Assembly (NCBI GenBank): GCA_025055075.1
Contig: JANWYV010000013.1
Span: forward strand, 1-64,000
Direction: 5' to 3'
DNA from: Blastocatellia bacterium
Lineage (GTDB): Bacteria; Acidobacteriota; Blastocatellia; HR10
DNA: 64,000 nucleotides
In this document: positions 22,171-56,077 of the stretch, one piece after another
Numbering within the stretch: position 1 is the stretch's first letter
Layout: each line of letters begins with the position of its first letter
The notes under the pieces: model-generated
What the model was told of the DNA's origin: nothing
The model's input: the letters and a program-made list of their open reading frames with translations, nothing else
Databases searched by the model: none
Position numbers and translations under genes: made by a program

Positions 22171-22734
22171 TTAATTCGACCGAGGCTCCAGCTCTAACTC
22201 CAAGCCCCGACCCGTCCGCTCCGAATGTTGCTTATGCCGCCGGATCTGCTCCAGCGGGATGCAGACGAGATGCGGAGCATCATCCTGCCGATCGGGGAAC
22301 AGGCGAATCGTCGCCGTCCCCGTCGGTCGCCGCATCCGTTCTGCATCTTCGGACGAGACGTATCCGATGAGCACGGGAGAGCCATCGCGCAGCTTGTGCA
22401 TCTCATAGCTCAGGAAGATCTTCTTCCGAAAGAGCGGAGCATCCCACTGCCCGACGGCGCTGGTGAATCCGTACACCCCTTCCGGCAGTTGATCAATCCC
22501 CGTGCCCTCTTCTTCTTCCGTGAGCGGTCGGACACCATGTTCCTCTCGCAGCGCAAGACGTTCTGGCTCCTCGATCACAATGCCTCCATCAAAAGAGCGA
22601 TTCAGAGTGGCTGAGGTCTCCTCCCGCCGTCGCCGGAACCAGGAGAAGAGTCCCGCCATTACACTGCTCCCCACCAGTAGCAACAAATCGTTGCTCAAAA
22701 GCGCAGGCATGAGAGTCGAAATCGGGATCGCCAT
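22171..22734 (-). CDS. Hypothetical single-pass membrane protein
   Basis: I do not recognise this 187-residue protein. The ATG at 22734 is eight bases after GGAGG and is preferred over an in-frame ATG two codons upstream. One N-terminal membrane helix (NDLLLLVGSSVMAGLFSWF) is followed by a basic stop-transfer R-R-R-R-E, an acidic linker and a globular part rich in charged residues. It stands between doxX and the lipid genes on the same strand. No enzymatic motif is seen. Confidence 0.7.
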   Translation of the reverse strand: MAIPISTLMPALLSNDLLLLVGSSVMAGLFSWFRRRREETSATLNRSFDGGIVIEEPERLALREEHGVRPLTEEEEGTGIDQLPEGVYGFTSAVGQWDAPLFRKKIFLSYEMHKLRDGSPVLIGYVSSEDAERMRRPTGTATIRLFPDRQDDAPHLVCIPLEQIRRHKQHSERTGRGLELELEPRSN

Positions 22735-22872
22735 GGCCATTCCCTCCTTCGCGAAGAACGTCATGCGATCGGATGGCATGCTCCATTGGATTCCGCTTCG
22801 CTCTCATCGGCGAACGCCGTGCCAATTTCGGCCTACAGAGTGTAGCGAGCCACTTTGGAGAGGACAAGCGCA

Positions 22873-23754
22873 TCAGTGCCTCCTTGAGGCGGCGGCGCTC
22901 CACGATGCCCTCGACATCTCCAACGTGCCCTCGCGTTGAGCGAGAGCGCGCTCGACCGGCTCAGCGACGATCCGATGCACGCGCTCCATGAGCGCATCAA
23001 TGTCCTCCTTGCGCATCCCCTTGGTCTCGATCGTGTCGTGGATGTAGACGGTGATCGTCGAGGGATAGAGCATCCAGCTCCCCGTCCGATGGAATTCATA
23101 GGAGCCGACGATGCTCATGGGAACGATGGGATAGCCCGTGTACTGCGCCAGGACGAATGCCCCGCGCTGAAAGGGGCCGACGCGACCGGTGCGCGTCCGC
23201 GTCCCTTCGGCGAAGATGATCAAGCTGATGCCGTCATCGAGCGCCTGCTTGGCGCGCCGCAGCAAACGGCGAAAGGCCGCGGGATTATTCGAATCCTTCG
23301 GCACCGGGATGTTGCCGAAGCGCTTCATCATCCACCCGTAGGCCGGAATCTTGAAATGCGTCTCCAGCTCCAGCCCCCGCACGAACTGCGGGATAGCCGA
23401 ATAGATGACGAACGCATCGAAGATGTTCACATGATTGCACACGAAGATGCTCGTGCGCGTGGGATCGAATCCCGGCGCGTAGCGAACTTGGAAGCGGACG
23501 CCGGCCAGCCGCAGGACATTGCGGAAGAACCAGCGCTGCGGGCGATCGTTCTTGCGCGGGTCTACGAACATCCCCAGCAGGACGAGGAATGTGCACACCG
23601 GGAAGAAATGCAGGATGCTCACCGTCCAGAGGAACGCGCTACGGAGCACCAGATAGAGCTGGCGCAGTCGGCTCGTGCGCCGGAACTCGCGTTGCGGCCT
23701 CACCAGTGCGAATGCCTTCAGTCGTTCGATCCTCACGGCCCTCCTCCTGCTCAA
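22873..23754 (-). CDS. 1-acyl-sn-glycerol-3-phosphate acyltransferase (PlsC-like)
   Basis: PlsC enzymes acylate lysophosphatidate to phosphatidate at the inner membrane. The 293-residue protein has an N-terminal membrane segment (about 35-65), the catalytic H-x4-D as N-H-V-N-I-F-D and the substrate motif F-A-E-G-T-R. The gene overlaps the upstream lipid kinase by ATGA and is the last of four coupled genes (acyl carrier protein, acyl ligase, lipid kinase, PlsC). The context suggests a dedicated lipid route rather than the housekeeping PlsC, which is an inference. Confidence 0.9.
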
Positions 23755-24704
23755 ATCATCACCTCAATGGCGGCGGGCAGCACATCTAAGCGTTGGCACT
23801 GCACGTGCAGCACTTCACCGTCCACCATCACCGGCACTGGGCCTTCCAGCGAGAATTCGATCCGCCGCACGGCTCGCCGTTCGCACAAGGGATGCGCAAT
23901 ATGCGAGCCGTCGAAGAGTCCGGGCAACTGACGCAATAGGCCGATTCGACCGATCGGTCCCCATCGCACGTACTCGATCAAGCCATCGCACGGATCCGCA
24001 TGGGGAGCGATCAACATCCGCCCGCCCGTGAACTTGCTGTTCGAGAAGGTGAGGAATAGACATCGGCGGGCGTCCATCTCCGGCGCGTCCTCCACGCGCA
24101 CGGGAAAAGCGCGTCGCTTCAAGCGCACCAGGCACGCGAAGACCCCAAGGAGGTATCCCGCTTCGCCAAGTGGTTTGAACCATCGGTTCGTCACCGCCGC
24201 GACATCGGCCGGGAATCCCACGCTGAGGAGATTGAGGAAATACAGGACGCCTTCGCGATGCACGAGCCGGAGCACATCGCAGGCCCGCGCGCGGCCTTGA
24301 CGCAAGGCCTCTCGAACGCGCTGCAGCGCCGCTTCCGCATCTCCCGAAGGAGTGCCAGACGCCACCTCCTCCACGAGGAAATCGCGCAAGAAGGAGTTGC
24401 CCGTTCCCAACGGGAGCAGCGCAAGGCGCGGACGCTCGGGTTCGCCCTCGGCCTCAGGGAACACCCCATTGAGGACCTCGAACGTCGTCCCATCTCCACC
24501 GACGATGAGGAACGAGCGATACCCCTCGCGGTACGCAGCGCGCGCGCGGAGCGTGGCTTCGCCCGGTCGGCGCGTCCAGACGACGTCCATCGGCAAACCG
24601 CTCGCTCGCAACTCGGCCAGCACGGGCTTGGCCCGTTTCCCACAGCGTCCTCCGCCCGCGGCCGGATTGATGATGGCGAGGAAGCGTTCCCGATCTCGGC
24701 TCAT
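23751..24704 (-). CDS. Diacylglycerol/lipid kinase of the DagK/YegS family
   Basis: This 317-residue protein has the DagK catalytic start ([15 protein letters not shown]), the nucleotide loop V-G-G-D-G-T and the L-P-L-G-T-G-N-S segment of YegS/DgkB proteins. The family phosphorylates diacylglycerol or related lipids with ATP. It overlaps both neighbours by four bases (ATGA). Its product could be used by PlsC downstream or recycled to phosphatidate. The exact lipid, ester or ether, cannot be read from the sequence. Confidence 0.9.
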
Positions 24705-26413
24705 AGTTCCCGAACGTCAGCGCGGCTCCGGTGCTGGCGAATCTCCTCGGCCAAAACCGTCCGCTTGATCTTCAGCGATGCCGTCCGCGGGAAATCACGA
24801 TCCCAGACGAGGTATCCGTGCACGCGCTTATACTCGGGCAGCCGCCGATTGCGCTCGCGAATCTGCTGGCACACAGCCTCCGTCAGCTCCTCCCCGGGCG
24901 ATGGGTGGATGACGAGGATGAGCTGTTCCTGACCGAGCCGCCGCTCCGGCCACAAATAATTGGCCGCGAAGATGCAGAACTCCTTCACGGGCAGGCCTTC
25001 GAAGAAGGTCTCCACGTCCTCGGGGTAGATGTTCTTCCCCCCTTCGGTCACGATCATGTTCTTCTTCCGCCCGACCAGTTGCAGATGGCCCGTCTCATCT
25101 ATGCGACCGAGATCGCCAGTGAGTAACCATCCGTCCACGATGGTCTCGGCCGTCAGCTCCGGATCATCCAGATAGTGCGACATCACGTTCTTACCGCGAA
25201 CGGCGACTTCGCCGATCCCCTCGGCGTCGGGATCGAGGATCTTCACCTCCACGCCCGGCAATGGCTTGCCCACCGTGTCGGCGCGAAACGGCTTGAGATC
25301 ATTCACCGTCACCGCCGTGCACGCTTCCGTGAGCCCATAGCCGTTGGCGACCGGAATCCCGAGATCGTAGAAGAACTGCAGCGTGGAGGGTTCGGTGAAC
25401 GCGCCGCCGACGATGAGCATCTCCAAATGCCCGCCGAAGGCGCGATGGACGGCCGGGAAAAGACGACGGCTGAGCCGCACGTTCGGCTGTCGGCGCGTGA
25501 GCCACCGATTCAATCGCATGAGCGCCTGCAGCAGTGCGCGCTTGGGCCAAGGCAGGCTCGCGAACCGTTCCCGCAACCCCCGCTCCAGGTTCTTGAGGAT
25601 CATCGGCACGACGGTCATGTGGGTGATCTTGTAGCGCACGAAGGCCTCGCGGATGTATTCCGGGCGAAGCGTGCGCAAATGCACGACCGTGGCGCCGCAG
25701 ACGAAGGGGCCGATGAACCCCACCATGAAATCAATAGCGTGGTTTGTCGGCAAGATGCTCAAGTAGCGGACCTCGGGCGAGAAGGGATAAATGGCCGTGA
25801 GCGAACGGCACTGTTCGAGGTAATTCTCATGGGTGAGGACGCAGCCTTTGGGACGCCCGCCCGTGCCCGAAGAATAGACGATGCACGCGACATCCTGACG
25901 TCGGCGCGGGATGAATTGGGGATCGCCATCGCCGCGAAACTCTTCCCACCGTCGCGAGTCTTCCAAATCCGCCTCCGGCGGTGCCTCCGTCACCAGGACC
26001 AATCGCAACGGTAGCTCCCGCCACCCGACTTCTTGCCGCAGCGATCTCCAGAACGGAAATTCCGTAATGAGCACCGAAGCGCGCGCATGCCGCAGCAGCT
26101 CGATCTGTTCGCGCGGACTCAGCTTGTAATCGAGAGGGACGAGCACGCCGCCCGCATAGAAGATGGCATAGGCGGAGATCAGCCACTTCGACTGATTGGT
26201 CATGATGATGGCCGCGCGCTCATCGGGCGCGAACCCATGTTGTTGCAGGGCGCTCACCAGTGGCAGGGCGCGCTCCTTGAATTGCCGATACGTCAACCGA
26301 CAATTCTCGCGCTCGCGATCAGCTTCGATCAGACAGGTATAGTCGGCCCATCGCTCTAAGGCATCGCGAAGCGCTTCCCCGAGCGACTGATACCGTTCCA
26401 AATCCAGCATCAT
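24701..26413 (-). CDS. Acyl-CoA/acyl-ACP synthetase (AMP-binding), lipid locus
   Basis: A 570-residue adenylate-forming enzyme. The motifs are in order: [11 protein letters not shown] (about 190), N-G-Y-G-L-T-E-A (about 370), [11 protein letters not shown] (about 430), [14 protein letters not shown] (about 450) and a C-terminal Lys in S-L-K-I-K-R. It activates a fatty acid as acyl-AMP. Because its start overlaps the stop of an acyl carrier protein gene, it may load that carrier instead of CoA, which is an inference. It is coupled downstream to the lipid kinase. Confidence 0.9.
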
Positions 26414-26652
26414 AACCTCGCGTGAATTCGTTCGGCCAAAGCCCGGAAGCTCGTCACGCCTTGCAGCTCGTAATCCGGCAGCTCGATCTGAAAATGCTGC
26501 TCCAAGCGTCCGAGCAGCTCCAGGGCCTGCAGGCTATCAATCCGCAGCTTCTCGAAGAGATCATCATCTGGCGAGAGCTGCTCCCGCGGCAGGCGAAAAT
26601 AGCTCGCTGCCAGATCGAGCAGCTCTTCGATCGTCTGTTCCAACGTGCGCAT
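26410..26652 (-). CDS. Acyl carrier protein
   Basis: This 80-residue acidic helical protein has the phosphopantetheine site I-D-S-L-Q-A-L-E (Ser near residue 39) of the carrier-protein family. The ATG at 26652 lies nine bases after AGGAGG; an upstream in-frame TTG lies before that site and is not used. It opens the four-gene minus arm of the lipid locus and overlaps the acyl ligase by ATGA. It is probably a specialised carrier rather than the fatty acid synthase AcpP, because no fab genes adjoin. Confidence 0.9.
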
Positions 26653-26666
26653 CTTCCCGCACCTCC

Positions 26667-26895
26667 TCAATTCCCGTCAAAGGAGAGTCCGATGGCGACG
26701 CGAGCCCCTCCCGGCCACCGCCGGGGCGTCAGGTCGCTTCCAGCGCGCACTCGGCGAGCGATCTCCAAGACACGGCTCTCCAGCCATCGTTGCGGCAGGT
26801 CCTGGCGCACCGGATCGGTCGAGCGCGCCACTCCCCAGGAGGCCCATGACCGCTACGACTCCGAGGCATCCCAACAGAAGGATGCGCTTCCTCAT
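26667..26895 (-). pseudogene. Small exported protein interrupted by an apparent frameshift
   Basis: An ATG at 26895 follows GGGG by six bases and encodes a leader (RKRILLLGCLGVVAVMGLLGSG). In that frame the rest, up to the stop at 26677, has poor codon use. In the +1 frame, from about 26830 on, the codons match the genome's G/C third-base habit and read STDPVRQDLPQRWLESRV and further, ending at 26667 just before the acyl carrier gene's ribosome site. Upstream the +1 frame is blocked by TAG. This looks like one gene of about 75 codons broken by a one-base indel, real or from assembly. The function is unknown. Confidence 0.5.
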
Positions 26896-26960
26896 CTTCG
26901 TCCCCTTTTGAGGGGACGCCTCTGGTGAAGGCGTCCTCGAATTCAGACGTTTGTGGGACA

Positions 26961-27974
26961 TCAGGGTGTCCCGGTCAGTTCCATCGAACGCTGCTGCCGC
27001 CACCTTCGCAGGAAGCGTCCGATGACGCCGTTCCACGGCGGGATCACGATCGAGACGGCGCCGAAGGCGCGCGCCTGACAGGCCAGACGAATGATGGGTT
27101 TCGGTTCGTCGGTTTCAAGGTATCCGAACTCCCACAGCCGACGTCGCTCGTACTCCTCCATCTCCGAGAGCTTCTCCGCCCCTCCGAGCACGCCCACCCA
27201 ACACGATCCGCATGATCCAGACCGACACTGAACGGGGATCGGCCCTTCATTGGGCACGCACCGCGGATCGCGAAGGTGATGCGGGCGCTTGTCCTGAGCC
27301 GCCGCCGTCGTCAGGTGCTGGCGATTGATCAATCGGAACGTCGCCTCGGGATCATTCTCGTCGAAAGTGATCGTCCACACCTTGTCCGGATATTTCCACC
27401 AGTAGAAGATGCTCTGCCGATCATCGCGCGCTCGGCGAGCGAGCACTTCCTCGGGCGTGCGCGCAGCGATCCGAGGATCAAGGGCGATCGTGCCCGAGGC
27501 GGCCTCGAAGGCCGTCCATCCCACTTGCTGCAACGTCATGAAGGCGACGGCTGTGATCCCGACGACGAGCGAAGGCTCGACGCGCCTCCATTCGGCCACT
27601 TGAGCCGCGACCGCGCGAATGTGCTCGGTCAGGTCCAACGTTTGCAACGCGCGCGGCGATTGCGCGTACTCGAGGACAGCGCGCTTCACCTCCGGCCAAT
27701 AGCGGTGGCCGTACAGGAACCGGTGCGAGGAATCAATCTGGTCCGCGAGCCGATACGTCCCCTCGAGGAATAGCTCGCGCGCCAATGCCTTCGGATCCTC
27801 CGCCTCTCGTAATGCCTGCGCCAGCGAGAGCGGGAAGAAGTGGAACCAAATGCGCGTGGCCACTCGGTCTACTTCGTGAATATGCCGTTCGAGCTGCTTC
27901 ACGATGCGCCACCACGCGTCCTCATCGTGCCGAGCCAAGAAGGCCTCGAAGAGTCGTCCATCACCTCCGCTCAT
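26961..27974 (-). CDS. 2Fe-2S ferredoxin-domain protein with a helical N-terminal region
   Basis: This 337-residue protein is helical over residues 1-210 without a family I can name. It ends in a plant-type 2Fe-2S ferredoxin domain with C-R-S-G-S-C-G-S-C (about 256-264) and a distant fourth Cys in RLACQAR. It should be an electron-transfer protein. The N-terminal half may bind a partner. It lies upstream of the broken exported gene and the lipid genes on the same strand, so it could supply electrons to lipid modification, which is speculation. The start at 27974 has only a weak ribosome site. Confidence 0.75.
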   Translation of the reverse strand: MSGGDGRLFEAFLARHDEDAWWRIVKQLERHIHEVDRVATRIWFHFFPLSLAQALREAEDPKALARELFLEGTYRLADQIDSSHRFLYGHRYWPEVKRAVLEYAQSPRALQTLDLTEHIRAVAAQVAEWRRVEPSLVVGITAVAFMTLQQVGWTAFEAASGTIALDPRIAARTPEEVLARRARDDRQSIFYWWKYPDKVWTITFDENDPEATFRLINRQHLTTAAAQDKRPHHLRDPRCVPNEGPIPVQCRSGSCGSCWVGVLGGAEKLSEMEEYERRRLWEFGYLETDEPKPIIRLACQARAFGAVSIVIPPWNGVIGRFLRRWRQQRSMELTGTP

Positions 27975-28085
27975 AATCCCATTGCCCGAAACGCACGGAT
28001 TGACGTTCCTGCCCCTCTTGTTGGAGAGGGCTATTTTAGCAAGAGGGCCCCGTTGACTCAAAATTTCCCCGTCGCCGATCTCCGT

Positions 28086-28304
28086 TCACCGCATGCCGAG
28101 CAGATCGCGAGCGTCGTAATCGCAGATGAGCCCTTCCGGATCTCGATCCTCATACGCTTGACGATCCACCCAGACTTGAATGCGTCCCCTCTCAGCGACG
28201 CAGACGATCCGATCCCGGTGGACATATCGGCCCGTGAGCTGCCCATATTCGTTGAAGATCCACCCCGGAATCAAATGCGCGACCGCGCGAAAATCAATGA
28301 TCAT
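28086..28304 (-). CDS. Small hypothetical protein
   Basis: An ATG at 28304 lies six bases after GGAGGGG and opens a 72-residue frame (MIIDFRAVAHLIPGWIF at the N-terminus). The composition is that of a soluble, mixed-charge small protein with a hydrophobic start. I recognise no family. The longer frame to 28394 has no ribosome site. It sits 111 bases upstream of the ferredoxin-domain gene on the same strand. Confidence 0.55.
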   Translation of the reverse strand: MIIDFRAVAHLIPGWIFNEYGQLTGRYVHRDRIVCVAERGRIQVWVDRQAYEDRDPEGLICDYDARDLLGMR

Positions 28305-28661
28305 CCTCGACCCCTCCGCTCCAAGCTCCCCAATGCCGACAGCGACCAATTGTAGACGTCGAACGGGAATCCCGGCCAGACCCAAAAGCAGCATTAGCCA
28401 AAGGTTCTGCGCCCAAAGACGCTCCGCGCGCCCATCTGGGTCACGTGGAAGGAGGATCGGGAGGACGCCGGTCCGGAGTGGGGATTATCCCGGCTTTTAT
28501 TCTCTGTCAAACTTTGCTATACTGTGGGCCGCTTTCACGGGGCATGAGTGGGGCATCGAAACGAAGAGACGGCGTCGAGTGGCGATATGTCTGATGGGTG
28601 CCGACCGCACAATCCGAACGTTCCGGTCCGGTGGATCTTCTGGCGCGTGGAGGGGAGTCTA
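28305..28661. other. Divergent intergenic region of the lipid locus
   Basis: These 357 bases separate the minus-strand genes from the plus-strand reductase operon. They contain the 28518-28523 TATACT element on the plus strand and, on the minus strand, a TACAAT-like element (28349-28354) without a good -35. No gene is convincing. A 16-codon frame from the ATG at 28544 is probably chance. Confidence 0.5.
28495..28523 (+). promoter_or_regulatory. Candidate promoter of the reductase operon
   Basis: TATACT at 28518-28523 is an excellent -10 element, identical to those of other promoters in the window. The -35 region 17 bases upstream (TTTTAT, 28495-28500) is poor, so an activator may be needed. 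It is about 140 bases upstream of the chosen start. Confidence 0.4.
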
Positions 28662-30926
28662 TTGAACCTGAGCGCCGTGCGCCCCATCGCGTTCTTCACA
28701 TGGAACGCGCAGAGCTTCGCCGAACGATGGATGCGGCGCATGAGCTTGGCGCTCTCGGCGTTGATCCGTCCCGTCCTCTACTTAACCGATCGCGTCCTCG
28801 CCACGCGCTTGTTGCATGCCCTCTTGCGGGGCATCAGTCGGGATCGCCTCGACCTCTTGGGGGAGGAGTACTTCCATTACGTCCTCAAGCCGCGCTTGAA
28901 TCCAGAAGCGGTCGCGCGCCTGCAGCACCTCGTCGCCCGAGGGGAACCGGTCGTCCTCGTGAGCCAAGCATTGGATCACGTCCTGCGTCCTCTGGCGCAG
29001 CATCTCGGCGTCCCGTATATTCTCTCCAATCGGCTCGAGTTCCGAGAGGGACTGGCGACGGGGCGACTGCTCGATCCGGTGATCCGTCCGCGCGGCGCTC
29101 TGGCGCGCGTGCGAGGCCTCTCAGCCGATGGTCGTCGCTCATTGGAACAGTTGGCGCGCGATCTCGATCTTCCGCCTGATGTCCTTTGGAGTGCGATCAC
29201 ACGTGCTAGCCGAGAGCGGAGTCTCCCTTCGGTCTCTTCTCGCTTAGTGCTCTTCCGAAAACCGAAGCCGATCGAGCGCCTCTCCGTGCGGGAGGCGCTC
29301 GCGGGCAAACACATCTTGCTCATTGGCGGCACGGGATTCATCGGGAAAGTGTGGCTGGCCAAGGTCCTGAAGGACCTGCCCGAGATCGGGCGCATTTATC
29401 TGCTGATCCGCCCGCATCGCTCGACTTCAGCCGAACGCCGTTTCGAGACGCTCGTGGCCGGATCCCCGGTCTTCGAGCCGCTGCGCGAGCGTTATGGGGA
29501 AGAGTGGAGGCGATACCTGAGCGAGCGGGTCGAAGTCATCGCGGGAGACATCACCCAACCCAATCTGGGCATTGATCCGGAGACGCGCGCGCGCTTGCAT
29601 AAGACGCTCGATCTTGTGGTCAACAGTTCGGGATTGACCGATTTCAATCCCGATCTCCGCGATGCGCTGGCCATCAACGTCGAGGGGACGCTGCATGTGC
29701 TCGACTTCGTGCGGCAGTGCGAGCGGGCGGCGCTCTTGCATCTCTCGACCTGCTATGTCGTCGGGTATCGAGATGGCTACATTCCGGAGGTTCCCATCCC
29801 GAACTATACACCTCGCGGAGCACCTGATTTCGACACCGAGCGCGAGCGCCAAGCGCTGCACGCGCTTGTGCGCGAGATCTGCGCGCGCGCCGAGAGTGCG
29901 GAGGTCACTGAAGAGCTACGCCGACAAGCATGGGAGAAAGCTCGCGAGGCGCACGACACCAGCTCCGCTGGGTTGGAGACGCGGTTGCGCCGGTATCGGC
30001 TGCGTTGGATGCGCAACCAGTTCGTGGAAGCTGGAATGCGTCGGGCGCAGGAATGGGGATGGCCAAACACCTATACGTTCACCAAGAGTTTGGGCGAATC
30101 GCTGCTCTTCACTCGCGGGGCGGACTTGCCCATCGCCGTGGTGCGCCCCTCCATTGTGGAAAGCTCCATCGCGGAGCCGTTCCGAGGATGGAACGAGGGG
30201 GTGAACACGTCAGCGCCGATCTCCTACTTGCTGGGGACTTACTTCCGGCAGCTTCCCTCGAATCAATGGAAGCGCTTGGACGTCATCCCGGTGGATCTTG
30301 TCGCGCGGGGCATGGTACTCATCGCGGCAGCGCTCTGTCTGCGTCGCCATGAGCGCGTGTACCATCTGGCGACCTCCATGCGCAACCCTTGTCCCATGCG
30401 TCGCTCGATCGAGCTGACGGGACTCGCCCATCGCAAGTTCTACCGCGCTCAAAAGGAGCTGGAATATCGGCTGCGCGCCCTCTTCGATCCGATCCCCGTC
30501 TCCAAAGAGCGATACGAACGGCTCTCAGTGCCGAGTCAGAAAGCACTCATCCAAGCACTGCAGCGATTCAGCGCGCCATTGCCCTTCGTCTATCCATCGC
30601 TCGTGCGAAAGGAGCGCGATCTGGATCGCGTGGAGAAACTCATCGAGCTGTACGAGCCCTTCATCCTCCACAACGAACATATCTTCGAGGCGACGCACAT
30701 CGAGTGGCTGCACGCGGCGCTCGTGCCCGAAGAGCGCGAGACCTTTGGCTACGACGTCACGAACATTGATTGGTGGGAGTATTGGATCAACATCCATATC
30801 CCGGCCCTTCGCCGATGGTCATATCCGCTGATCGAGGGACGTCCGATTGAAGAACCGCTGCAGCGCGTCTCGGACGCCCTGACGCCTTCGAGCATGGGAG
30901 CGGCGGCGAGGTCGTCGGGAGATTGA
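28662..30926 (+). CDS. Fatty acyl-CoA/ACP reductase with an N-terminal degenerate HAD domain
   Basis: The TTG at 28662 lies six bases after GGAGGGG and gives 754 residues; the frame is open to 28548 but lacks a ribosome site. Residues about 10-165 resemble HAD-IB phosphatases ([20 protein letters not shown] is motif II). The motif I aspartates are replaced (F-F-T-W-N-A-Q), and the late acidic motif is missing. From about 210 comes an NAD(P)-binding reductase domain ([10 protein letters not shown], later Y-T-F-T-K as Y-x-x-x-K) followed by a 'sterile'-type C-terminal domain. Such enzymes reduce acyl thioesters to aldehydes or alcohols. It heads the four-gene plus arm of the lipid locus. Confidence 0.85.
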
Positions 30927-30937
30927 GCTGTCCGACA

Positions 30938-32116
30938 ATGGCCATCACGCTCACGGGAGCAACGGGGTACATCGGAGCTCACGTGGCGGTACTGCTGCTG
31001 GAGCGCCACGCGGACTCTCTGAACGTGCTCGTGCGCGCGAAAGGGCCGGAGGAGGCTGCTCGCCGCCTCTGGCAAGCGTTCCAGTTGCACGTGGATTTCC
31101 CGACTTTCTACGAATATCTGCAAACGCGCCTGACGCTCTACGTGGGCGATCTGACGGAGCCGCGCTTCGGGCTCTCGGAAGCCGAGTACCGACGGCTCGT
31201 GCACACGACGGATTCGATCATCCACTGCGCGGCGTCCCTCAACCGACGGTCCGAACGGAGCTGCTTGAACGTCAATCTCCGCGGCACGCTCGAAGTCCTC
31301 AAGCTCGCCCTGGCGGCTCGCGATCATCACGGCCTGCGTCGCTTCAGTCATGTGAGCACGGTGGCCGTCGCCGGTCACCGGAAGGATGAGGTCGTGCGCG
31401 AGGATGAAGCCATTGATTGGAATCGCTCGGATTACGATCCCTATGCGCGGACGAAGAAGTTCTGCGAGCATATGATCCGAGAGTTGCTGCCGGATGTCCC
31501 GCGCACGATCTTTCGCCCGAGCATCGTGCTCGGCGACAGCCGCTACGGCGCGACGACGCAATTCGACATGGTGCGCGCGTTCGTCTTCTTGGCGAATCTG
31601 CCCGTGCTGCCATTTCACCCAGACGCTCGTCTGGATATCGTCCCCGTGGACTTCGTCGCCGAATCCATCGTCGCGCTTCATCAGAAAGAGCGACCGCGAT
31701 ACGACACCTACCATCTCTCGGCCGGCGTGGGATCACAAACCTTCCGCCAACTGACCGATGCCTTGGCGCGGGCTCGGAAGACCCCTCGTCCTCTGTACCT
31801 GCCCTGGTTGGAGCGCCCGTTCACGGCGACGGTGAGCTGGCTCGCCGAACGCCGCCGAACGACGATCGGCTACGTGGCGTCATTGCTCAAGGTCTTCATG
31901 CCGTATCTGGTGTGGAATACGGTCTTCGACAACACGCGCGTGGTGGAGGAACTCGGACGCACGCCTCCGCCGTTCTCCGAATATTGTTACCCCCTCTACG
32001 TCTTCAGCACGACGCATCGCTTCACCTATCCCTATCAAGCATGGCCGGAGGACGTCGGGGCACTCCCGTCGCGCGCTCTAGCTTCACATCTCCGCGAATC
32101 GGAGAGAGCGAGATGA
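30938..32116 (+). CDS. NAD(P)-dependent SDR, thioester-reductase-like
   Basis: This 392-residue extended short-chain dehydrogenase has an N-terminal nucleotide loop (T-G-A-T-G-Y-I-G) and an active Y-A-R-T-K. Features of the NAD_binding_4 group, which reduces acyl thioesters, are present ([33 protein letters not shown]). The start at 30938 is just after the stop of the first reductase and has only a weak ribosome site, so translational coupling is likely. It could carry out the second step from aldehyde to alcohol or act on a different lipid thioester. It overlaps the next gene as ATGA. Confidence 0.85.
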
Positions 32117-33564
32117 TGGACGTGATCCTCGAGCTTTGGGTGGGGGCGACGATCGAATGGTTCAAGCTCCAATGGATCCTCGGCTTCGGCGACCGATGGC
32201 GGCCGGGGGAGAAGTTGAAACTCCTCTTCGCCGGATACAATGGGGCGCGCAATACGGGAGCCGATGTGCGCGTCGAAGAGATGGTGCGACAGATCCGACA
32301 CATTCTCGGAGATGAGCACGTGCACCTGAGCGTCATGACGCAGAATTTCGAGCTGACGCGCGGATATTTCCGCGGGGCGCAGCAGATCAAGCTCCCCGAT
32401 GTCTTTCCCCCGATGCTCGCGCGCGAAGTCCCCAAATACGACGGCGTCATCGCCTGCGAGGGCTCCATGTTCAAGAGCAAATTCGCCAACGCCCTCACGA
32501 CGATGATGGTCGGCGCGCTCGGCATCGCCTCGGCTCGTAATCGTCTCTCGATCGGCTACGGCGCGGAAGCGGGCGAGATGGACCCGTTTCTCGCGCGTTT
32601 GGTCAGCCGCTATTGCCGCCATTCGCTCATCATCACTCGAAACGAGGAATCGCGCGTCATCTTGAATCGGCTGGGGATCCCGACCGAACTCGGCACGGAT
32701 ACGGCCTGGACGTTCGAGCCGCTCGGTCCGGAATACGGACGCGCCGTCCTGCGCGAAGCCGGATGGGATGAGCGCCGTCCCGTTCTCATCGTCTGTCCGA
32801 TCAATCCCTACTGGTGGCCTGTACGGCCTTCGCTCTGGAAATATGCGTGGCATGCCCTCACGGGCGCGTATCGCGAGAGTCATTACCGCACGATCTACTT
32901 CCACCGATGGGGACCGGATGTCGTCGCCCGCTATGAGCGCTATCTGACGGCTTTGGCACACGCCATTCGCGCATTCCAAGAGCGCAGCGGGGTCTTCCCC
33001 GTCTTAGTCGCTATGGAGATGCTCGACCGCGACGCCTGCCGTCGCCTTTCCGAACGCTTGGGTGGCGTCCCCATCTTCGCCTCCGATCGGTACGACATGT
33101 ATCAGTTGGTGAGCATCCTGCGATGCGGGCATTTCATGGTCTCCTCGCGCTATCACGGCATCGTATGCAGCATGCCGGCCGGCGTCGTCTCGGCCGGCGT
33201 CACCATGGATGAGCGAATTCGCAATCTCATGCACGAGCGCGGCCATGCGCACCTTCTCCTTGAGGTGGACGATCCGGATCTGGGGGAGAAGCTGCTGCAA
33301 GTCCTCATGACGTTGCAAGAAGAACAGGAGGCCATCCGCGAGGACATCGGGCGAACGGTGGTTCGGAACCTCAAGCTCATGGCTCGCATGGGCGTCCACT
33401 TCGAGGAATATCTGCACCGCTGTTATCCGGAATTCCCCATCCGCCGGGGGATCCTCTCGTGGGAGGAGTATCTCCCCCCGCTCAGTCCCACGCTGCGCCG
33501 ATTGCTTGAAGCCTATGATGTCGAGGAATCCACGACGACTGGAGAATCTTCATCCCGCGCGTGA
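32113..33564 (+). CDS. Polysaccharide pyruvyl transferase family protein
   Basis: The ATG at 32113 overlaps the previous stop and lies six bases after GGAGAG, giving 483 residues. The fold is that of the PF04230 family: an N-terminal [10 protein letters not shown] loop, a middle G-x-x-A-E-A-G-E segment, and the C-terminal S-S-R-Y-H-G-I-V motif. Known members add pyruvyl ketals to sugars, but many homologues have unknown roles. Its place among acyl reductase and acyl ligase genes is unusual and suggests modification of a lipid head group or a glycolipid. The long upstream frame from 31417 is an artefact. Confidence 0.82.
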
Positions 33565-33638
33565 TGGCGGCCTGCGCGCGAGAAAGTCCTTTGCGGCATT
33601 CCCGGACACTGCGTTCTCTCGGGGAGGGAAGACGCAAA

Positions 33639-35285
33639 ATGAACTTCCTTGAGACCATCTTCCGTCAGTTGCAGGAATCCGCCCACCATCCCGTCCTTCA
33701 GGAAGTGCGAGAGGGACGAATCCTCTCGGTGACGGGCGCGGAGCTTCTCGCCTTGGTTCGCACGGCACGCGCGTACTTGCGCCGCCAGGGAGTGCGCTCG
33801 GGCGATCGTTGCGCCGTGCTCGCTCCCAACAGCATCCGATGGGTTGCGCTCGACCTCGCCCTCATGGCCGAGGGAATCATCGTCGTCCCTCTCTACACGC
33901 GCCAAGCACTCGCGGAGTTGGTCTACATTTTGAAAGATTGCTCGCCCGCGCTCCTTTGCGTGGAGGAGGCGGCGCTGCGCGAACGAATACGCACCTTGTG
34001 GTCGGAAGCACCACCGATGCCATTGCTGGAAGAGATCTTCGCGCCGAGCGCGGAGGATGCGGCGATTCCCGACGCCCCGATCCCACGCGCTGACTCGGAG
34101 CCGGTGACGATCATCTACACGTCAGGGACATCGGGTGAGCCCAAAGGCGTTGTCCTCACCATCGGGAACGTCACCTTCATGCTCCCGCACACGCACGAAC
34201 GGCTCAACCGGCTCATGGGTCCACGACGTCATCGGGAGCGCGTCTTCCATTACCTGCCTTTCTGTTTCGCAGGCTCATGGATTCTGCTCCTGACGTGCTT
34301 GTCGCGACCGAGCACGCTGACGCTCTCGACCGATCTCACGCGCCTGAGCGAGGAGATGCAACTGGCTCGCCCCCACTATTTTCTGAATGTCCCGCTTCTT
34401 CTGGAGCGAATGCGCGCGAGCATCGAAGATCAGATGCGACAAAAGGGCCGGATCGTCCGTGCGCTCTTCGAGCGGGGCCAAGCCGCTTGGTTTCATCACT
34501 TCGACGGCGCAGCCTCGGCTCGCGATCGGCTGTGGCTCGCGCTCTGCCGTCCTCTCTTCCACGCGATTCGGAGACGACTCGGATCCGATCTTGTAGCGCT
34601 CATCTGCGGATCAGCTCCGCTTCGCCGCGAGACCCAGCTCTTTTTCATGATGCTTGGGATTCCCGTGCTTCAGGTCTATGGCCTCACCGAGACAACGGCC
34701 ATCTGTACGATGGACGATCCGCTGGACTTCGTGCCCGGATATGTAGGCCGCGCCATCTCGGGCATCGAGATGAAACTCGCCGATAATGGGGAAATCATCG
34801 TTCGGGGTCCCAACGTCTTCCCCGGCTATTGGAATCGCCCGGAAGCCACGGCTCAGGCCTTCCGCGATGGCTGGTTCTGCACCGGGGATCATGGCGAAGT
34901 GGATGCGAAGGGAAATTGGAGGATCCTCGGACGGGTCAAGCACCTCATCGTCCTCAGCTCAGGCCACAACGTCCCGCCAGAACCGCTCGAGGACCTGCTC
35001 CTTCGCGCCCTTCCTGATGCTCAACACGCCGTCGTCATTGGACATGGACGTCCGCACCTTGTGGCATTGATCACGGGATCCGTCACTCCAGCGCAGGTTG
35101 AAACCGCCTTGGAATCACTCAACGCGCAGCTCCCCCACTACAAGCGCATTCGAGCGTACGCGATCCTTCCCGAATCCTTCACGATCGAGAATGGGTTGCT
35201 CACGGCTAACGGGAAGCTCCGGCGGGAGGCCATCCTCGCTCGCTTTCATTCGGAGATCGAACGCCTTTATGCGACAGTGAAATGA
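33639..35285 (+). CDS. Long-chain acyl-CoA synthetase (AMP-binding), plus arm of lipid locus
   Basis: The start at 33639 follows GGAGGG by ten bases and matches the usual N-terminus (NFLETIFRQLQESA), giving 548 residues; the frame is open to the previous stop at 33564. The motifs are Y-T-S-G-T-S-G-E-P-K-G (about 170), Q-V-Y-G-L-T-E-T-T (about 345), W-F-C-T-G-D-H-G-E-V-D (about 400) and a C-terminal catalytic Lys in N-G-K-L-R-R. It resembles FadD15-type acyl-CoA synthetases and likely supplies the acyl thioester for the reductases encoded upstream. Confidence 0.9.
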   Translation: MNFLETIFRQLQESAHHPVLQEVREGRILSVTGAELLALVRTARAYLRRQGVRSGDRCAVLAPNSIRWVALDLALMAEGIIVVPLYTRQALAELVYILKDCSPALLCVEEAALRERIRTLWSEAPPMPLLEEIFAPSAEDAAIPDAPIPRADSEPVTIIYTSGTSGEPKGVVLTIGNVTFMLPHTHERLNRLMGPRRHRERVFHYLPFCFAGSWILLLTCLSRPSTLTLSTDLTRLSEEMQLARPHYFLNVPLLLERMRASIEDQMRQKGRIVRALFERGQAAWFHHFDGAASARDRLWLALCRPLFHAIRRRLGSDLVALICGSAPLRRETQLFFMMLGIPVLQVYGLTETTAICTMDDPLDFVPGYVGRAISGIEMKLADNGEIIVRGPNVFPGYWNRPEATAQAFRDGWFCTGDHGEVDAKGNWRILGRVKHLIVLSSGHNVPPEPLEDLLLRALPDAQHAVVIGHGRPHLVALITGSVTPAQVETALESLNAQLPHYKRIRAYAILPESFTIENGLLTANGKLRREAILARFHSEIERLYATVK

Positions 35286-55979: not shown

Positions 55980-56077
55980 TGGCGGAGGCGCGTGGGAATC
56001 GAACCCACCGGCGTCGGCTCTCGCCGTCGCCCACCGGGTTTGAAGCCCGGGGAAGTCACCAGACCCCATTCGCCTCC
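55980..56077 (-). tRNA. selC: tRNA-Sec (UCA anticodon)
   Basis: On the minus strand the gene folds into a tRNA with acceptor strands GGAGGCG / CGCCTCC, discriminator G and an encoded CCA. It has the anticodon loop CTTCAAA (anticodon TCA) on a CCGGG/CCCGG stem, a long variable arm (GGCGACGGC-GAGA-GCCGACGCC) and a T arm GTGGG-TTCGATT-CCCAC. The UCA anticodon and long extra arm are diagnostic for selenocysteine tRNA. SelA, SelB and SelD genes are not in the window. Confidence 0.93.

Follow-up and report, generated by a model that had tools for sequence, protein, structure and literature searches.

Positions 22873-35285 of a 64,000-nucleotide stretch from a Blastocatellia bacterium (contig JANWYV010000013.1 of assembly GCA_025055075.1; hereafter the window) hold a lipid-synthesis locus which, judged from its genes, appears to encode the myxobacterial Elb pathway in rearranged form, and which comprises most of a nine-gene set common to many uncultured Acidobacteriota. 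In Myxococcus xanthus, ElbD combines a fatty acyl reductase (FAR), an acyl-CoA synthetase (ACS), an acyl carrier protein (ACP) and an acyltransferase in the order FAR-ACS-ACP-acyltransferase and is required for ether lipids, and its gene is flanked by those for a HAD protein (ElbB), ElbC, and a short-chain dehydrogenase/reductase (SDR; ElbE) (PMC9131029); elb is also already known from several subdivision-4 genomes (PMC10087280). On balance we lean towards the view that the window carries the Elb lineage in separate genes, whose products would make glycerolipids from fatty alcohols, alkyl-ether phospholipids being the likeliest kind. No account of this gene set turned up in searches of the literature.

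The genome is 3.0 Mb in size and 98.8% complete, and is congeneric with HRbin10 and other Blastocatellia metagenome-assembled genomes (MAGs). Nine protein-coding genes were read within 22873-35285, with families assigned by Pfam:

22873..23754, minus strand: PlsC-type acyltransferase (PF01553), with N-H-x4-D and E-G-T-R motifs intact and also kept in orthologs
23751..24704, minus strand: YegS/DagK-family lipid kinase, GGDGT motif intact
24701..26413, minus strand: AMP-ligase A (acyl-ACP/CoA synthetase type)
26410..26670, minus strand: ACP, with the phosphopantetheine serine in I-D-S-L
26961..28061, minus strand: 2Fe-2S ferredoxin-domain protein, between the two arms
28548..30926, plus strand: HAD-FAR, a fusion of HAD-IB and fatty acyl reductase (NAD_binding_4 and Sterile)
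30923..32116, plus strand: NAD_binding_4 SDR (P0007), YxxxK intact
32113..33564, plus strand: PSpyr (P0008), a polysaccharide-pyruvyl-transferase-like GT-B protein (PS_pyruv_trans)
33639..35285, plus strand: AMP-ligase B (FadD/CAR-adenylation type)

Pfam bore out the places and families of the eight genes that an earlier, sequence-only reading had described; the 2Fe-2S gene at 26961-28061 between the arms was absent from its description. That reading had also coupled the minus arm by three ATGA overlaps, of which two are present (ACP/ligase A and ligase A/DagK), but the DagK/PlsC junction is TTGA. The plus arm contains one TTGA and one ATGA overlap. Ligase B probably begins at the ATG at 33639 rather than the GTG at 33561, the called frames of its relatives also beginning later, and the start of HAD-FAR is inexact, similarity starting near residue 30. 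Catalytic motifs are intact in every part except the HAD domain, and the ACP serine, the SDR Tyr/Lys and the DagK GGDGT are kept across orthologs, as are the glutamates of the crotonase described below. Ligase A is very strongly conserved, with 193 near-invariant alignment columns.

The reductase belongs to the elb family and carries a degenerate ElbB-like domain

For the comparison with Elb we used fused acidobacterial proteins and the literature description of M. xanthus ElbD. Fused ElbB-ElbC-ElbD-ElbE operons occur in two families of the window's class (f5 and f9), where the fused ElbD of a sister family is 1475 amino acids long with all four domains and ElbC is a Lar_N protein. Loci of the window's type, hereafter split loci, occur in families f1-f4 and f8, and none of the genomes seen has both forms; this mutual exclusion tracks family lines and is partly phylogenetic.

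A likeness to ElbD had been proposed from the letters of the window, and a comparison of reductases agrees with it. By maximum likelihood the split FARs group as a single clade (support 97/99) within the elb FAR family. Its sister is a group that includes both fused and FAR-only elb FARs, and another ElbD group lies further off, so that fused ElbD FARs stand on either side of the split clade; because the tree is midpoint-rooted, the direction of change is not proven. The window FAR aligns with elb FARs at 32-37% identity across the whole ~520-residue domain, and its nearest solved fold is that of rice DPW (TM 0.80 to target), a fatty acyl-ACP reductase. FAR-only elb operons with the order ElbB-ElbC-FAR-ElbE-DagK were seen in three other acidobacterial families (L227, L228, and L229); theirs is a third arrangement, intermediate between the fused and the split. 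A DagK homologue ends these loci, linking the kinase to this chemistry.

The first gene of the plus arm had been taken for a fatty acyl reductase, and it does encode one, though not a plain one but a HAD-IB, FAR and Sterile fusion. Its HAD half aligns to ElbB, with which it has ElbB-specific blocks in common (e.g. NRLEF..ATGRLL.PV). Of 81 aligned sequences none keeps the DxD of HAD motif I (DxDGT): nearly all read FFTWN(A/S)Q at this place (FFTWNAQ in the window) and a few AHYASN. Motifs III and IV have been lost as well. Given the ElbB-like blocks and the lost motifs, the protein appears to be ElbB fused to a FAR, its phosphatase dead. That the HAD domain might still be an active phosphatase like ElbB was considered and rejected, since all key motifs are lost.

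The locus is a conserved cluster with a ninth member

Relatives were found with the reductase as query, and alignment of the window proteins to their loci showed these genes side by side again. The counts that follow rest on the best 80 matches from a scan of named genomes, all of them split-type loci, and a locus was taken as well covered if at least 9.8 kb lay downstream of the reductase (n = 50). Almost every carrier among these best 80 is an acidobacterial MAG, belonging to Blastocatellia, Terriglobia (gp1, gp2), or Ca. Acidiferrales. Conservation of the neighbourhood had been named as one point on which the original proposal could fail, and the cluster proved to be kept: HAD-FAR, SDR, PSpyr, ligase B, an enoyl-CoA hydratase (ECH, a crotonase), ACP, ligase A, and DagK are all present in 45/50 well-covered loci, and the full set lies on a single strand in 43/50. 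Taken singly, ligase B is found in 50/50, DagK in 48/50, and PlsC in 29/50, where its homologue occupies the same cluster end as in the window. As the set and its order recur over two acidobacterial classes, at ~50-70% protein identity, the cluster is not a product of chance. In a separate draw of 297 genomes across the phylum, a PSpyr ortholog (at least 61% identity) was found in nine, and HAD-FAR in 9/9 of these, which ties PSpyr to the FAR.

The eight genes first recognised do belong together, but as a set they are incomplete, for ECH had been missed. It sits between ligase B and ACP in 50/53 loci holding both; two of the three exceptions come from the window's genus, and the other has an inverted layout in which ECH still lies beside ACP. 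Both of its catalytic glutamates are conserved. In the window's genome the ortholog is found on another contig (C23:90366-91166), at 65% identity versus 36% for the next paralog. ECH is the ninth cluster member, moved to another contig in this genome.

Two arms diverging from each other, as first described, are what the window and its genus have, but elsewhere the locus is mostly one directional cluster. Since most loci are single-stranded, the divergent layout is a rearrangement peculiar to the window's genus. That ACP, ligase, DagK, and PlsC form a phospholipid operon standing only by accident back to back with an unrelated reductase operon would agree with the divergence of the arms around the 2Fe-2S gene in this genus, with the distance of about 28 kb between the arms on one contig in G008, and with G005, where the minus arm is alone on one contig and PSpyr, ECH, and Fer2 are on other small contigs. 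However, both arms run head-to-tail on one strand in those 43 loci, and all nine phylum-draw genomes with a PSpyr ortholog have HAD-FAR; we consider an accident of this kind very improbable, and reject it on synteny.

Some associations are local. The 2Fe-2S protein is associated with the cluster only in the window's order, where it adjoins ACP, ACS_A, or ECH in G005, G006, and G008. In clusters of family f8 (L039, L040, L041, and L082) a FabH-like ketoacyl synthase lies between ECH and ACP, which suggests a dedicated fatty-acid starter; it and two small open reading frames (ORFs) are confined to that family. In one Bacillota-labelled MAG (L129), HAD-FAR, SDR, and PSpyr are present with identities of 61-71%, either through transfer or because the bin is mislabelled.

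The locus departs from Elb in its SDR, its lack of ElbC, and its added genes

The locus shares with elbA-E the same FAR family, an ElbB-homologous HAD domain, and the activities ligase, ACP, acyltransferase, and SDR; DagK homologues lie beside several elb loci, and the fused version occurs in sister families of the same class. It differs in that the ElbD domains are separate genes in the window, that the ElbB-like HAD is fused to the FAR with its phosphatase motifs lost, that the genome is without ElbC (Lar_N), that PSpyr, ligase B, and crotonase are added, and that its SDR is thioester-reductase-like, not ElbE-like. None of the three added proteins was found in the elb loci examined.

Ligase A gives its best score to ElbD, but a score about equal to FAR-less ligase-ACP-acyltransferase proteins, and ligase A, ACP, and PlsC together are as close to those proteins as they are to ElbD. 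The SDR (P0007) most resembles the R domains of thioester/carboxylate reductases (MxaA, CAR) and matches the elb-side SDR weakly (about 26%, 1e-9). Ligase B likewise resembles the adenylation part of CAR; unlike CAR and MxaA, the window proteins are stand-alone and unfused, and lie in a lipid context. The proposed likeness to ElbD thus holds for the reductase, whose fused HAD domain matches ElbB, but ligase A, ACP, and PlsC show no preference for ElbD. By the same token, the suggestion of an unfused ElbD relative was right in that there is a real, if partial, link to Elb, but the locus is not simply ElbD in pieces: with ElbC absent, ligase A about as near to FAR-less proteins as to ElbD, and PSpyr, ligase B, and crotonase in addition, a plain cut-up ElbD is too simple.

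PSpyr retains a phosphoenolpyruvate site

The AlphaFold model of PSpyr (pLDDT 85.5) has a GT-B fold, and Foldseek searches with it returned this general fold only. Sequence searches of the PDB with PSpyr, as a single sequence and as a profile, gave no match up to E = 1, and its score against the curated CsaB family TIGR03609 (60.2 bits) is far below the cut-off of 213.1. In CsaB, mutagenesis showed that R148, H308, and K328 are critical for binding of phosphoenolpyruvate (PEP), docking adds R306, and a K328R variant stays active (PMC10435577). Profile alignment places R177, R347, H349, and R369 of PSpyr (P0008 numbering) at the CsaB positions R148, R306, H308, and K328, respectively, with R347 belonging to an R-x-H motif and R369 representing a K-to-R change at K328. 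All four residues are invariant in 24 PSpyr orthologs (alignment A2). PSpyr is therefore probably a PEP-dependent transferase, as far as its sequence can tell. It has the GT-B fold and the PEP-site positions of CsaB and Pvg1p (K328 as R), but differs from them in its length of about 480 residues, with extra ends, in lying within a lipid operon, and in that no glycosyltransferase was recognised among its conserved neighbours.

A proposed route to ether lipids and its alternatives

In the pathway that we propose, ligase A would charge ACP with a fatty acid, and reduction of this acyl-ACP by the FAR would yield a fatty alcohol or aldehyde; the dead HAD domain may serve in docking or regulation. 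The alcohol would be taken on to an alkylglycerol by PSpyr, ligase B, crotonase, and the SDR of thioester-reductase type. For the ether-forming step our preferred guess is that the fatty alcohol attacks PEP at PSpyr. DagK would then phosphorylate the alkylglycerol and PlsC would acylate its remaining hydroxyl, yielding an alkyl-acyl phosphatidate that would enter phospholipid synthesis.

A more specific form of this route, in which the glycerol carbons would themselves come from PEP, would be a new way to glycerol ethers and, to our mind, accounts best for the middle genes, but we regard it as doubtful. PSpyr would join fatty alcohol and PEP to 2-alkoxyacrylate, ligase B would convert this to its CoA thioester, and the crotonase would hydrate the alkoxyacrylyl thioester, as crotonases do methacrylyl-CoA; the SDR would reduce the resulting 3-hydroxy-2-alkoxypropionyl-CoA to 2-O-alkylglycerol, to be phosphorylated by DagK and acylated by PlsC. 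For every step there is a candidate enzyme whose motifs are intact. If this route were true, 2-O-alkyl rather than 1-O-alkyl glycerol ethers would be expected; 2-O-monoalkyl glycerols do occur in bacteria, where the mechanism of the ether linkage has been termed yet unknown (PMC5552659).

Several observations weigh against an Elb-derived route to ether lipids. ElbC (Lar_N) had no match anywhere in the window's genome, and its absence together with three extra genes means that the chemistry need not match that of Elb. In a tree of ligase A, the window's protein groups with neither ElbD nor the FAR-less fusions, and branches are long. PlsC is missing from ~40% of well-covered loci, and almost all carriers found are uncultured MAGs. 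Pontiella has elbD homologues, yet ether lipids were not detected in it (PMC11868695). Finally, ether bonds, if there are any, might come from another part of the genome. At L086:3068-7997 (G000:C45, about 116067-120996) three adjacent plus-strand genes encode proteins of 514 aa (no Pfam match), 726 aa (two BcrAD_BadFG domains), and 406 aa (DUF2229), a trio that is possibly, by its domains, an unfused relative of Ger/PlsA. DUF2229 was found in 9/10 genomes searched in the window's order and in 0/48 others of the class. The Ger/PlsA route also yields alkyl or alkenyl ethers (PMC11868695, PMC13274423), in which it would resemble the proposed pathway, but its proteins are unrelated to those of the locus, within which no large fused Ger/PlsA-type activase/reductase gene was found, and the putative unfused set sits elsewhere.

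The locus may instead supply fatty alcohols or aldehydes for a non-ether use, such as wax-type neutral lipids, aldehyde-derived lipids, or an outer-envelope lipid bearing a long-chain alcohol ester. FAR and ligase/ACP by themselves demand only a fatty alcohol output, and the cluster is without a dedicated ether synthase of known type (AGPS). Genome-wide, we found one strong FAD-oxidase_C protein (482 aa) and one weak adjacent match, which we read as a GlcD/GlcE-like pair (glcD-glcE) and not as AGPS, although this is a crude exclusion. Nevertheless, the conserved cluster includes DagK and PlsC, a glycerolipid-type kinase and acyltransferase, a DagK homologue also lies beside elb loci, and no wax synthase or similar enzyme was recognised among the conserved members, so that we hold a non-ether use to be unlikely, though not negligible. 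We think it quite unlikely that PSpyr adds a pyruvate ketal to a glycolipid head group while the other genes build the anchor, which would make the product an envelope glycolipid and the ether question secondary. The match of PSpyr to CsaB-type ketal-pyruvyltransferases, its retained PEP site, and the use of sugars by its known relatives would all fit a glycolipid, but the conserved members include no recognisable glycosyltransferase or sugar-nucleotide gene, and the adjoining ligase B, crotonase, and thioester reductase would be left unexplained.

The synthesis of ether lipids in Acidobacteriota, among them the branched glycerol dialkyl glycerol tetraethers (brGDGTs) that serve as climate proxies, continues to be described as unclear, with elb accounting for only some subdivision-4 genomes and Ger/Mss for others (PMC11868695, PMC10087280, PMC13274423). 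The locus provides a concrete, testable gene set in groups that showed no fused elb operon, namely Terriglobia, Acidiferrales, and hot-spring Blastocatellia. It also offers the activities of ElbD as single expressible proteins, which could aid the search for the ether-forming step, and places a transferase of PEP-binding type at the centre of a lipid pathway.

Other features of the window

Between the 2Fe-2S gene and ACP, positions 26671-26960 (minus strand) hold the remnant of a polysaccharide deacetylase gene that has lost ~770 bases relative to sister genomes, where the gene is intact at the same place. Two small proteins without a Pfam match, encoded at 22171-22779 and 28086-28394 (both minus strand), are conserved neighbours of the cluster within the window's genus, and in G008 they lie near ECH/Fer2. 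ARAGORN called a tRNA-Gly(acc) at 25166-25234 (plus strand), antisense within ligase A, which is probably a false positive. A tRNA-SeC is predicted at 55980-56077 (minus strand), and the genome may accordingly use selenocysteine.

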